64,000 nt of DNA from Sulfurovum lithotrophicum (GTDB lineage: Bacteria > Campylobacterota > Campylobacteria > Campylobacterales > Sulfurovaceae): NCBI RefSeq assembly GCF_000987835.1, contig NZ_CP011308.1, positions 1,178,001-1,242,000 on the forward strand, read 5' to 3'. The notes beneath the pieces were generated by a model. It had not been told where the DNA came from, did no database searches, and saw only the letters and a list, made by a program, of their open reading frames with translations. The number at the start of each line of letters is the position of its first letter. Position 1 is the first letter of the stretch. Of this stretch, positions 4,256 through 9,089 are shown piece after piece. Position numbers and translations under genes: made by a program.

Positions 4256-5311
4256 ATGTCATATACACTCAATATCAAAGCATTTTTTTTCAATGCACAA
4301 ACGGATTATCTTCCTTATTATAAACATTTCATGATCACTCTGGACGAAGATACAAAAGCCGTTGACATGCTCGAACTGATAAAAGAGCAGAATGAAAACT
4401 TTGCCTATCCGGAGGAAAACCTTGTCTTCCGGATCAACGACCTTGTTGTGGAGGGTGACCAGCCTATGAAAGAAGTAGTAGAGAAACTGGGTACCGCTCT
4501 TCAGATCGATCCTGTCAATGCCTACCGCTCCAACAACGGGCTGATCATAAATGACGATGACTTCATGCAATCCTATGAGTTACTTGCCCCGTATGCCTCA
4601 GAAGAAGACCTGGAGTACTACAAGACACTTTACGCCCTGCATTATGCTTCTGAAACAGAGAAATTCGACCATGACTACATCGGGGATGCCATTCTTGTAT
4701 TGGCACACAGGCTCATCGCCGAAGAGAGCGAACATGCCGAAGTGATCCTGCATACGATCTCCACTACCCACAGCGGCCTGTTCGAATGCGAATACGAGAA
4801 CAACCTCTTCAGGGTACAGGAACATACGGATGCCATCGAGGCGCTCAAGCTGATGGTCAAACCACCCAAAAAGACCGAACCGGGATTAATAGACAAAATG
4901 ACCGCAAAATTCATTAAAAAGCCTGAATCCAAAAAGGAATCTGTCGTACTTTCCGAGACTGAAGGTAAAGAGATCGCCTATTATTATGGTGGAGGCAGTG
5001 ACAACTCCGAAGCCATCGCAAAAAAGACCGCTGCGTTGGGTGCGACCATGACCACCTTCTCAAGAGCCCATAAACTTTCCGGCCTGACACTGCTTGAAGA
5101 CCGTAAGGAGCTTGCTTTCAAAAAAGCAGGTACTACACTGCTGGATGCCCTTGACAGCGGAGCGGATATTCTGATCGTTGAAGATGCCGAGGCCTACGGT
5201 ATGTTCAAAAAAAACCTTCCTGCGATCGAAAGAACTATGGGAAGAGACATAGAACTCACGCTGATCACGACCGAAAACTTTCTTGCTATGAACGAATCAG
5301 TAGCCGCTTGA
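4256..5311 (+). CDS. Cysteine-depleted SdhB/SdhE-like fusion protein
   Basis: 351 residues with a single cysteine (C178). Residues 7-20 (IKAFFFNAQTDYLP) nearly copy residues 9-22 of the SdhB encoded 3 kb downstream (IKAFRFNAETDYLP), but the [2Fe-2S] cysteine loop is replaced by YPEENLVFRINDLVVEG. Residues 140-200 follow SdhB around its third cluster (DYIGDAILVLAHR against DYLGPAALNAAYR; GLFECEYENN against GVWDCVKCFE). Residues 296-345 match the CCG subunit (ADILIVEDAEAYG and GRDIELTLI against ADIMVTPCPLCHL and GRDIELPVL), again without cysteines. It may correspond to a Campylobacterota DUF family. Function is unknown; an assembly or decoy partner of the SdhABE complex is an inference. Confidence 0.7.
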   Translation: MSYTLNIKAFFFNAQTDYLPYYKHFMITLDEDTKAVDMLELIKEQNENFAYPEENLVFRINDLVVEGDQPMKEVVEKLGTALQIDPVNAYRSNNGLIINDDDFMQSYELLAPYASEEDLEYYKTLYALHYASETEKFDHDYIGDAILVLAHRLIAEESEHAEVILHTISTTHSGLFECEYENNLFRVQEHTDAIEALKLMVKPPKKTEPGLIDKMTAKFIKKPESKKESVVLSETEGKEIAYYYGGGSDNSEAIAKKTAALGATMTTFSRAHKLSGLTLLEDRKELAFKKAGTTLLDALDSGADILIVEDAEAYGMFKKNLPAIERTMGRDIELTLITTENFLAMNESVAA

Positions 5312-5320
5312 TAAAAATGT

Positions 5321-5353
5321 CTGATGCATTACATTAGGTAATGTAATGCACAG
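5321..5353. promoter_or_regulatory. Perfect dyad upstream of sdhA
   Basis: TGCATTACATTA (5325-5336) and TAATGTAATGCA (5339-5350) form a perfect 12-bp inverted repeat with a 2-bp centre, and the CTG/CAG flanks extend it. There is no T-tract, and it lies about 80 bp upstream of the sdhA -10 box. It reads more like a protein-binding operator than a terminator, though mRNA hairpin formation after the upstream gene is possible. Confidence 0.55.
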
Positions 5354-5429
5354 ATGAAAAACTGTAACACTCTTCTATTCTATTATCCTATTCTCCCACC
5401 ATATTAATTAAACTTAATGACTAAATAGC

Positions 5430-5457
5430 TATAATCAATGTAAATTGCAACAAAGGA
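5430..5457 (+). promoter_or_regulatory. sdhA -10 box and ribosome binding site
   Basis: TATAAT at 5430-5435 is followed by AAAGGA at 5452-5457, ten bases before the sdhA ATG at 5468. The sdhABE genes therefore probably have their own promoter, separate from the upstream degenerate paralogue. Confidence 0.55.
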
Positions 5458-5467
5458 CATAGCTACT

Positions 5468-7195
5468 ATGAATACGAACTCAGATGTTAAAATCTACGAA
5501 TATGATGCTGTGATTGTCGGTGCCGGTCTTGCCGGTCTCGCTGCTGCCAAAGAACTGACAGCTGCGGGGAAAAAGACTGCGGTCATCACCAAGCTTCATC
5601 CCCTGAGGTCACACTCGGGTGCTGCACAGGGTGGTATCAATGCCGCTTTGGGTAAAGACGACTCTACGGAACTACATGAATTTGATACAGTCAAAGGGTC
5701 TGACTACCTTGCGGACCAGGATGCGGTCGAACTTATGTGTACCAAAGCCCCTGAAACGATCCGGTGGGCAGAGCACATGGGAACGGTCTTCTCCAGAGAT
5801 GAAGAAGGTGATATCGCTATCAGACCATTCGGCGGCCAGTCCAAACCCCGTGCCTGCTATGCGAAAGACAGAACCGGTCTTGCATTGCTCCAGGCAATCT
5901 ACGAGCAGGCATTCCGTGAAGGTATTGAAGTATTCGACGAGTGGTACTGCGCAGACCTGCTGTATGAAGACGGGAAAGTTTCAGGGGTCTCTGCTTTCAA
6001 TATTCGCAATTCAGAGCCGGCTATTTTCAATGCAAAAGTAACCATGTTTGCGACAGGCGGACATGCAAGAGCGTACAGATTTAACTCCAATGCGCATGCC
6101 AATACGGGTGATTCACTTTCAATCGTTGCAAGACACGGCCTTCCGCTTGAAGATATGGAATTCGTACAGTTCCACCCGAGCGGACTCGGTGGTTCGGGGG
6201 TACTTATCTCTGAAGCAGCACGTGGTGAAGGGGGTCGTCTTTACAATTCTGAAGGTGAAAGATTTATGTCCAAGTATGCTCCCAATGCTATGGAGCTTGC
6301 ATCAAGGGATGTTGTAAGCCGTGCGATCATGGAAGAGGTCCGTCAGGGACGCGGTGTGGGTAAGGACGGTCAGTCCGTGAATATCGACCTGACGCACCTC
6401 GACCCAGAGATCATTCTGACAAGACTGCCGGAGCTTCGTGAACTCGCCATCGCTTTCCAGGGGCAGGATATGCTTAAAGAGCCTATCCATATCTCTGCAA
6501 CGGCACACTACTCCATGGGGGGTATTCCGGTCAATATCGACTGTCAGGTACGCAAAAGCCCTACGGAGTTCGTAGAAGGTTTCTATGCTGCGGGTGAATG
6601 TTCCTGTGTTTCCGTACACGGAGCAAACAGACTGGGTGCCAACTCGGTACTCGAAGCCCTGCTTTTCGGACGTCATGCCGGTGAAAACATGGTAAAAGCA
6701 CTTGATGAAGGTGTAGAATTGCGTAAAGCGAACAAAGCAGATGCACAGAGAATGCTCGATGAGCTCAAGAGGATCAAGACATCCAATGGAACAGAGAGGG
6801 TTGCGGACCTCAGAACGGAACTGCAGAACGGGATGACAGCTGATGCAGGTGTATTCAGGACTAAAGAATCACTGGAAAGACAGCTCAAACTGATCGACAG
6901 ACTGCTGAAGCGCTTCAATAACATCCGTATTGATGACAAGTCTCATACTTTTAACACCGAATTGCAGGAAGCTCTTGAGCTTGGTCATATGCTTGAGTTC
7001 TCCAAATTCATTGTCGTAGGCGCGCTCAACAGAGAAGAGAGCCGCGGTGGCCACTACCGTGAAGACTTCCCGACACGAGATGATGAAAGATTCCTCAAAC
7101 ATACGTACGCCTATATGGATGAAGACTTCAACATAACCACGGAATGGGGAGACGTTGTCCTCGGCAAGTTTGAACCTAAAGAAAGAACATATTAA
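5468..7195 (+). CDS. sdhA: Succinate dehydrogenase/fumarate reductase flavoprotein subunit
   Basis: Catalytic subunit interconverting succinate and fumarate; 575 residues. FAD-binding [15 protein letters not shown] is at 13-27, and the covalent-FAD histidine is H49 in [11 protein letters not shown]. Further markers are HPSG in [12 protein letters not shown], the active-site RGEGGRL, and HYSMGGIPV. There is no twin-arginine signal, unlike the periplasmic MfrA type, so it should face the cytoplasm. It is followed directly by sdhB and the CCG subunit, giving a type E complex with no cytochrome b subunit nearby. Confidence 0.95.
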
Positions 7196-7205
7196 GGAGG
7201 GCATG

Positions 7206-8195
7206 ATGAGTGATACAAGAAAAGTAACGATAAAAGCATTCAGATTCAATGCTGAAACAGACTATCTTCCATACTATAAAGAGTATGAGATGGAAGTGGG
7301 AAAAGATGAACTCATTCTCGACCTCCTCAACAGGATCAAATGGGAACATGACGGTTCTTTCTCCTACAGACGTTCATGCAGGCACGGTATCTGCGGTGCC
7401 TGTGCGATCAAGGTGAACGGAAGAGCGACACTGGCATGTAAACAGAATGCCATTGAACTGCTTGATCTGTTCAACAATGAACTGGTATTTGAACCTTCCA
7501 GTAAAAAACGCGTGGTTAAAGATATGATCATCGACAAAAAGGACTTCTGGGACAAACATGCGGCGGTCCAGCCGTATGTAGTTGCAGATATCGACCCGCA
7601 TCCCGAGCATGAAACAAAGCAGAGTATTGCAGAATTCAACAAATTCCTTGATTCCGACCTTTGTATCCAGTGTGGTGCCTGTCACTACTCCTGTCCTGCA
7701 CTTGAAGCGAATCCTGACTATCTCGGGCCTGCAGCACTCAATGCAGCATACCGATTCACGGTCGATACCAGAGACCATGCCGGCAAAGAGAGACTTGAAC
7801 TCACAGCTGAACCGGGTGTGGGTGTCTGGGACTGTGTGAAGTGTTTCGAGTGTGCCGAAGCCTGCCCCAAAGATATCAATCCTATCGAGAAGATCACTAA
7901 ATTGCACAATATGCAGTTTGAGCAGCATGTGGCAAAAAGCAATGTCGCTACAAGACACGCGGAAGGTTTTGTACGAAGTATCAAAAAGCACGGTTTCCTT
8001 GACGAAGCGGATATCGTGGTATATTCAGAGGGGTACCTCGGTATGTACAAACACCTCAAAACCGCGATGAAAATGATGAAAGCCGGCAAGATCCACTGGA
8101 ACGACGGACTGCCTTGGGTGGACAATGTGCCTAAATCCAAAAATCTTGATGAAATCCAGAAACTCATCGAGATCTCACAAACGAACAAGCTGTAA
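7206..8195 (+). CDS. sdhB: Succinate dehydrogenase/fumarate reductase iron-sulfur subunit
   Basis: Electron-transfer subunit between SdhA and the membrane-associated CCG subunit. From MSDTRK, the [2Fe-2S] ligands are C58, C63, C66 and C78. A CIQCGACHYSCP set (153-163) and a CVKCFECAEACP set (210-220) follow; the latter has four cysteines where classical [3Fe-4S] SdhB enzymes often differ. At 329 residues it is longer than E. coli SdhB, with an extra C-terminal stretch (about 250-329) typical of this type. AAGGAGG at 7194-7200 sits 5 nt before ATG 7206 (2 nt before ATG 7203), so 7206 is chosen. Ten bases separate it from sdhA. Confidence 0.93.
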   Translation: MSDTRKVTIKAFRFNAETDYLPYYKEYEMEVGKDELILDLLNRIKWEHDGSFSYRRSCRHGICGACAIKVNGRATLACKQNAIELLDLFNNELVFEPSSKKRVVKDMIIDKKDFWDKHAAVQPYVVADIDPHPEHETKQSIAEFNKFLDSDLCIQCGACHYSCPALEANPDYLGPAALNAAYRFTVDTRDHAGKERLELTAEPGVGVWDCVKCFECAEACPKDINPIEKITKLHNMQFEQHVAKSNVATRHAEGFVRSIKKHGFLDEADIVVYSEGYLGMYKHLKTAMKMMKAGKIHWNDGLPWVDNVPKSKNLDEIQKLIEISQTNKL

Positions 8196-8204
8196 GGAGA
8201 AACG

Positions 8205-9089
8205 ATGAGCAAATTAAAATATGCACTATTTACAGGATGTACCGCAAAGCAGTCCACACCTGAACTACTGTCATCTACGCTTGCAGTAGCGGATAAACTG
8301 GGTATCGAAATCACCATTCTGGAAGAGGCTTCCTGCTGCGGCGCGAGCCATCTTCAGGACTTCGACGAATTCCTGGCACATGTACTGAATGCAAGGAACA
8401 TCTGCTATGCAGAAAAGCTTGGTCTTACCATGATCACCATCTGTAACACCTGTCAGCTCAACTCTGCCATGACAAAACATGCGCTTGACACGGATCCGGA
8501 TCTCAAAGCGAGGGTCAACGAGAAACTTGCAGAGGTAGGCTTGGAATACAAGGGTACTTCAGAGATCAAACACTTCCTCTACTGCCTCATCGACGAGTAT
8601 GGTCTTGAAAACATCAAGGATAAGGTGGAGGTACCACTCAGCCATCTGAACATTGCGCCATTTTACGGATGTCACAACATCCGCCCGTCCGAACTGCACC
8701 ACACGAGCAACGGCGGAGAGAACCCGTACAACCCTACCTCACTCGACCAGCTCATCGATGCGCTCGAGGGCCATCCGGTCAACTACGACCACAAGAACAA
8801 GTGCTGCGGTTTCCACGTAGAGCTTCAGGCGAACCATACCTCAGAAATACTTGCAGGTAATGCCATGGTAGATGCTATCGACAACAATGCTGATATCATG
8901 GTAACACCCTGCCCACTCTGCCATCTCAAGATGGATACCTACCAGGACGATGTAGGCAAGGTTATCGGACGCGATATAGAACTTCCCGTTCTTCACATGC
9001 CTCAAATGGTTGCGCTTGCACTCGGCTGTACACCAAAAGAAATCGGCCTGAACTACCACGTTCAGAAAGCCACGCACCTTACGGCATAA
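8205..9089 (+). CDS. CCG-domain subunit of type E succinate dehydrogenase (HdrB-like)
   Basis: 294 residues with two CCG domains like heterodisulfide reductase subunit B. The first has a GCTAKQ cysteine and EEASCCGASH (C44, C45) plus ITICNTCQ. The second has APFYGCHNIRP, NKCCGFHVE and VTPCPLCHLKMD. In SdhABE complexes this protein, often called SdhE (unrelated to the flavinylation factor), takes the place of the cytochrome b anchor and passes electrons to or from the quinone. It overlaps nothing, has AAGGAG just before its ATG, and closes the operon at a hairpin. Confidence 0.85.
   Translation: MSKLKYALFTGCTAKQSTPELLSSTLAVADKLGIEITILEEASCCGASHLQDFDEFLAHVLNARNICYAEKLGLTMITICNTCQLNSAMTKHALDTDPDLKARVNEKLAEVGLEYKGTSEIKHFLYCLIDEYGLENIKDKVEVPLSHLNIAPFYGCHNIRPSELHHTSNGGENPYNPTSLDQLIDALEGHPVNYDHKNKCCGFHVELQANHTSEILAGNAMVDAIDNNADIMVTPCPLCHLKMDTYQDDVGKVIGRDIELPVLHMPQMVALALGCTPKEIGLNYHVQKATHLTA

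Follow-up and report, generated by a model that had tools for sequence, protein, structure and literature searches.

A cluster-less SdhB-SdhE-like protein of the DUF5644 family encoded next to sdhABE in Sulfurovum

The 8-methylmenaquinol:fumarate reductase SdhABE of Wolinella and Campylobacter is an E-type complex, described in Wolinella as consisting of three subunits (PMC2680327). In E. coli, loss of the Fe-S subunit reduces FAD attachment, and the assembly factor SdhE (called YgfY below, SdhE being kept for the HdrB/CCG subunit) occupies on FrdA the site used by FrdB (PMC5773532). The third system of interest is the H. pylori protein of crystal structure 3KWL, released in 2010 and given no more than the label "uncharacterized protein" in the one paper found to mention it. 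Its sequence closely matches a 496-aa frame in one of our loci (L150), and the size of this frame fits HP0468, which is termed a DUF5644 protein (PMC9570263). We infer that 3KWL is HP0468.

The window analysed here is a stretch of 64,000 nucleotides from Sulfurovum lithotrophicum (contig NZ_CP011308.1, positions 1,178,001 to 1,242,000). Its plus strand carries, in this order, the gene of a protein called P0001 (4256-5311), sdhA, sdhB and sdhE. As the original prediction had stated, P0001 is an open frame of 351 residues placed directly before sdhABE. It is a protein of the DUF5644 plus HdrB-like_C type, in which a cluster-less SdhB-like domain (residues 1-205, 4256-4870) is fused to the second half of an HdrB/SdhE-like domain (residues about 227-350, 4934-5305). 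The flavoprotein gene sdhA (5468-7195) was assigned from its frame and family matches, and its product carries a motif whose His we take to be the residue of covalent FAD attachment, as in relatives. The gene of the genuine Fe-S subunit, sdhB, with 12 cluster cysteines, extends from an ATG at about 7203 to 8195 (the listed frame opens upstream, with a TTG at 7155), and that of the genuine HdrB/CCG subunit, sdhE (8205-9089), was recognised by its frame, family matches and cysteine columns. After sdhABE come genes for a haem-binding-domain protein (PF14376, 9212-9649) and for a desulfoferrodoxin-type protein (PF01880, 9730-10116); a desulfoferrodoxin-type gene is also found 3' of a split gene pair, described below, in several Sulfurospirillum genomes.

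The promoter of its own that had been attributed to P0001 was not recovered: a consensus scan gave no promoter-like site upstream on the plus strand, and the 4 promoter-like sites of the P0001 region represent no excess over the 3.3 obtained in shuffles. The gap between P0001 and sdhA (5312-5467) begins with a strong hairpin right after the stop codon (5319-5355), followed by GTAACA at 5364-5369 and TATAAT at 5430-5435. Most Sulfurovum relatives exhibit a hairpin of unlike sequence at the equivalent place, together with GTAACA and a TATAAT-like box. Because these elements recur in most relatives, sdhABE may have its own promoter.

Residues 7-22 of P0001, IKAFFFNAQTDYLPYY, agree with the SdhB segment IKAFRFNAETDYLPYY at 14 of 16 positions, in line with the N-terminal near-identity first reported. 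Both halves were then compared profile to profile using hhalign and alignments built for this analysis. Residues 1-205 matched SdhB with a probability of 99.8% (E 4e-30) and residues 235-351 matched SdhE with a probability of 97.1% (E 5e-11), while control comparisons with unrelated families of these loci reached about 1% or less. Residues 4-138 also matched the NCBIfam SdhB families with E values of 3e-6 to 1e-5.

Cys is found at all 12 cluster columns in 16 of 16 reference SdhB sequences. Eleven of these columns are without it in P0001, where deletion of the loop has removed three of the four [2Fe-2S] cysteine columns, and the sole cysteine of the protein, C178 (codon 4787-4789), lies in a former ligand column; both counts are those of the original prediction. 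Among 102 SdhB-like family members, 10 of the 12 columns are devoid of any Cys and the two others retain one in 62 members (the C178 column) and in 11 members; the [2Fe-2S] loop is deleted. The cluster-binding set is kept by none of the 102, i.e. no homologue retaining the cysteines was found among them. The SdhB consensus is kept at 28 of the 32 strongly conserved positions of the family. Of the other positions, two were once cluster cysteines and are now mostly Tyr (at 122) and Ser (at 132), as if the emptied cluster site had acquired new residues at an early stage and held on to them.

The first half of the SdhE part is missing in the Sulfurovum form. P0001 still covers 5 SdhE cysteine columns and has lost the Cys at all 5, as anticipated for the CCG cysteines of the matched part; both CCG cysteine motifs are absent, the first half being missing and the remaining columns having no Cys. 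The split SdhE-like proteins of other genomes, referred to as E-like proteins, also lack the cluster-binding cysteine set. Their former cysteine columns are occupied by Glu/Asp (29 of 29 sequences), Ser (24 of 29) and Asp (18-19 of 29). Such replacements, of one kind per column in nearly all E-like proteins (L116, L110-L119, L033-L034), could mark a new ligand or metal site. Separately, SdhE was matched in two pieces inside one frame of 323-381 aa in several genomes of groups f1 and f4 (e.g. G039, G061, G075, G125), which suggests that SdhE carries additional inserted sequence about halfway along its length there.

An AlphaFold2 model of P0001, computed from an alignment built here, had a mean pLDDT of 93.4 and a pTM of 0.87. 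Compared using VIA-align, it superposed on 3KWL with a Z score of 24.4 over 331 residues and on W. succinogenes FrdB (1qlb_B) with a Z score of 17.2 over 196 residues, so that the resemblance to SdhB proposed from the sequence extends to the predicted structure. Many SdhB/FrdB chains matched residues 1-204 with Z scores of 15-17, corresponding to the SdhB fold, and HdrB chains matched residues 227-350 with Z scores of about 12.3 over 116-118 residues, corresponding to the second half only of the HdrB fold. Foldseek agreed with VIA-align, matching the model to SdhB/FrdB chains at 6e-9 to 1e-5. Together with the two hhalign matches and the level of their controls, these values rule out a chance resemblance. 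The de novo TIM-barrel matches of the first PDB search were weak and involved repetitive designed sequences; they were discarded. The P0001-family profile detected 3KWL at E 1.7e-25. 3KWL is a full-length fusion of both halves, and the split E-like protein has a full-length HdrB fold, with TM scores of 0.87 to HdrB 5odc_B and 0.82 to part of 3KWL.

In Pfam, residues 99-191 of P0001 resemble DUF5644 (PF18712) and residues 279-332 HdrB-like_C (PF22196), in the expected order, with scores under the curated cut-offs (20.1 versus 25 bits and 21.9 versus 33.4 bits, respectively); the relatives in L107, L116 and L150 score above them. The family is already catalogued, with its function unassigned and its crystal structure unexplained. 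In the Sulfurovum genomes compared, the gene is located directly before sdhA wherever the contig extends far enough. Sulfurospirillum, some Campylobacter and some Helicobacteraceae have a split form, two adjacent genes encoding a cluster-less SdhB and a cluster-less full-length SdhE; in Sulfurospirillum and some Campylobacteraceae MAGs these measure 216-255 aa and 271-301 aa, respectively. The profile of the SdhE-like protein matches SdhE over 280 columns at E 5e-35. Fused proteins, 324-510 aa long, are found in other families. Both states can occur within one family-level group: a genus-level group carrying the H. pylori-type protein has the full-length fusion, and others of its family-level group have the split pair. 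On a careful tree the fused or split state changed at least four times, which suggests that the halves act as one unit. In L107 (2077-3609), a DUF309 domain is fused in front of a DUF5644 protein encoded directly upstream of sdhABE.

In a tree of 83 rows the family forms one clade (SH-aLRT 100), 3KWL-type proteins included, on a long stem of 1.88 changes per site. It groups with the SdhABE-type SdhB proteins, and the branch separating FrdB has a support of 98, so that FrdB is not favoured as the source. The tree fits one old duplication of an SdhABE-type SdhB, although the exact attachment point of the family appears unsure given the long stem. A tree built without an outside HdrB outgroup sets the E-like proteins apart from SdhE as a single clade (100/100). 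P0001 groups with the DUF5644 proteins of other families and not with Sulfurovum SdhB, and a recent local copy of the neighbouring sdhB and sdhE was rejected. The view of P0001 as a duplicated, fused and de-metallated copy is well supported, by the profile matches and the fold as well as by the tree and the gene pairs that relatives keep unfused, but the duplication is old and common to Campylobacterales rather than local, and the fused or split state changed repeatedly. As judged from sequence, predicted fold and tree, P0001 is almost certainly an old SdhB plus SdhE duplicate that lost its ligand sets and kept its folds. Pairwise dN/dS values of 0.06-0.13 in the family indicate purifying selection, and the gene is, as first argued, not a pseudogene.

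The distribution of the family was established on 150 Campylobacterales genomes using a purpose-built profile, which scored family members at 66 bits or more and SdhB at 58 bits or less. By counts read from match tables by eye and raw with respect to kinship, the family is present in 54 of the 150 genomes: 28 of the 111 having SdhABE (periplasmic Mfr type included) and 26 of the 39 lacking it, the latter comprising 25 of the 37 FrdABC-only genomes and 1 of the 2 having neither complex. SdhABE or FrdABC is present in 53 of the 54 positive genomes. Conversely, 83 SdhABE-bearing genomes are devoid of the family, and nearly all of the 96 genomes lacking it have complex II. In a search of the phylum, all positives among the matches listed belong to Campylobacterales, and the named loci having the family come from Campylobacterota or unplaced MAGs.

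Linkage to sdhABE was seen in several arrangements. Among the 20 positive genomes of the non-Mfr type, defined as those whose SdhE falls short of the Mfr cut-off, 17 have the family and sdhABE on one contig within about 8 kb; the family also occurs in the 26 genomes without SdhABE. The gene is mostly upstream of sdhABE and co-oriented, with a 4-nt, operon-like overlap with sdhA in L037. Four genomes belonging to a single family have it in divergent orientation; in others it lies downstream (L074, L086, L087, L092) or is divergent (L088, L099). No linkage to frd was seen in the FrdABC-only genomes examined (G119, G065). In two family-positive MAGs, G135 (99% complete) and G187 (the genome of L111), neither FrdB/SdhB nor a complex II flavoprotein was detected, possibly by an assembly gap, possibly a real absence. 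The split pair of Sulfurospirillum lies between truD-thiL and, in several genomes, the desulfoferrodoxin gene; in Sulfurovum, sdhABE also occupies this truD-thiL/desulfoferrodoxin place. The genes recurring near the family (thiL, truD, desulfoferrodoxin and a uracil-DNA-glycosylase-type gene) look unrelated and were rejected as partners, as was an FrdA-like flavoprotein that accompanies the pair at certain Sulfurospirillum loci but not in general. A literature search on Cj1459/Cj1460, tentatively taken from synteny to be the pair in C. jejuni, returned nothing.

Since the cluster ligands are lost, P0001 cannot transfer electrons by the SdhB/SdhE route. Nor can the family serve SdhABE alone, because it is present in FrdABC-only genomes. 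The kept fold, the SdhB-type residues, the linkage to sdhABE and the co-presence with FrdABC point to the flavoprotein, the shared part of both complexes, as the partner. P0001 would stand in structurally, in the cytoplasm, for the SdhB-SdhE module, docking on SdhA or FrdA at the usual SdhB/FrdB face. There it might hold or mature the flavoprotein, by assisting FAD attachment or by covering the exposed flavin site, and would later give way to the real Fe-S subunit. We tentatively regard this model as the best explanation, somewhat short of an even chance; a role in maturing or holding the complex II flavoprotein is, from this analysis, plausible at about the same tentative level. PF03937 (YgfY/Sdh5) was detected in the E. 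coli and Caulobacter controls and in 0 of 60 Campylobacterales; as the E. coli factor uses the FrdB site and its family was not found here, a cluster-less mimic could hold or mature SdhA/FrdA. The narrower proposal, that the dead SdhB-SdhE copy is a dedicated Campylobacterales complex II maturation factor mimicking YgfY/SDHAF2 at the Fe-S-subunit face during FAD attachment, is doubtful. The 96 genomes doing without the family, nearly all with complex II, imply that flavoprotein maturation does not generally require it. G135 and G187, positive with no complex II detected, and the unlinked state in G119 and G065 also count against the stand-in model. So does the deletion of the [2Fe-2S] loop, which in known structures is part of the SdhB face turned toward the flavoprotein.

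Another reading starts from the same anatomy. The cluster-less module could be a regulator or decoy, roles that the original prediction had named besides that of a scaffold, and would rival SdhB-SdhE in binding the flavoprotein, so that a fraction of the latter stays inactive. Such competition is conceivable, if unlikely, and the hairpin and the promoter-like elements that lie in the gap before sdhA would permit independent control, in addition to the sdhABE linkage. Its effect, an equally unlikely one, would be a tuned succinate/fumarate flux or less superoxide from the reduced flavin. The desulfoferrodoxin-type genes after the window sdhABE operon and after the Sulfurospirillum split pair also speak for this reading. 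Sequence, however, does not tell a decoy from a maturation role, and in many genomes the family is unlinked and without SdhABE. The function may instead have moved off complex II to another protein or ligand, possibly via the acidic and serine residues replacing the E-like cysteines; we hold this to be rather unlikely. The family is kept in FrdABC-only genomes with no frd linkage and in G135/G187, two former SdhE cysteine columns are Glu/Asp and Ser in nearly all E-like proteins as counted above, and the HP0468 gene is reported to be induced by hydrogen (PMC6090961). Yet the truncated Sulfurovum form does not keep the replacing residues, 17 of 20 genomes show the sdhABE linkage, and no other conserved partner gene was found near the family loci.

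That P0001 binds at another face as a permanent, stoichiometric non-redox subunit, either in complex II or in some larger assembly, is quite improbable: repeated fusion of the halves speaks for a stable unit and the operon-like overlap with sdhA in L037 also favours this reading, but 83 of 111 SdhABE-bearing genomes lack the family and the characterised Wolinella complex has three subunits (PMC2680327). Least of all can we believe in a decaying pseudogene of an sdhBE duplicate. P0001 does evolve faster than its neighbours (78% identity between the window and L043, versus 93% for SdhA and 97% for SdhE), its E half is truncated in Sulfurovum, some Sulfurovum genomes are without a P0001-type gene, and the L104 copy is broken into two frames. 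Against decay stand intact frames in nearly all members, the low dN/dS values and retention in many families since the old duplication.

In the stand-in model, P0001 is likened to YgfY/Sdh5 (SDHAF2, PF03937) by the flavoprotein face that it is proposed to share with it, as inferred from PMC5773532. The likeness would be one of role only; we know here of no relation in sequence or fold. A family that did act on SdhA/FrdA might account in part for covalent FAD attachment where the known factor is not found, and, were the maturation-factor reading true, the H. pylori 3KWL protein would be the first factor of this kind whose structure is available. With SdhB/SdhE of SdhABE, the likely evolutionary source of the family, P0001 shares the SdhB fold, most conserved positions and the SdhE/HdrB fold; it differs by the absence of all ligand sets and of the [2Fe-2S] loop. 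It also provides a clear example of how an electron-transfer module of respiration can lose all its metal centres yet retain its fold and remain under selection. The 3KWL-type proteins are closest, with an identical order of DUF5644 and HdrB-like_C domains, both cluster-less, in one clade. In P0001, unlike in them, the HdrB-like part has no first half; the protein also falls under both Pfam cut-offs, and its gene adjoins sdhABE, which H. pylori-type genomes do not have. What is new here is the reading of the DUF5644 family as the metal-free twin of the SdhB-SdhE module, in split and fused forms. With it, domains conserved in both H. pylori and Campylobacter acquire an evolutionary source and a proposed partner open to testing.
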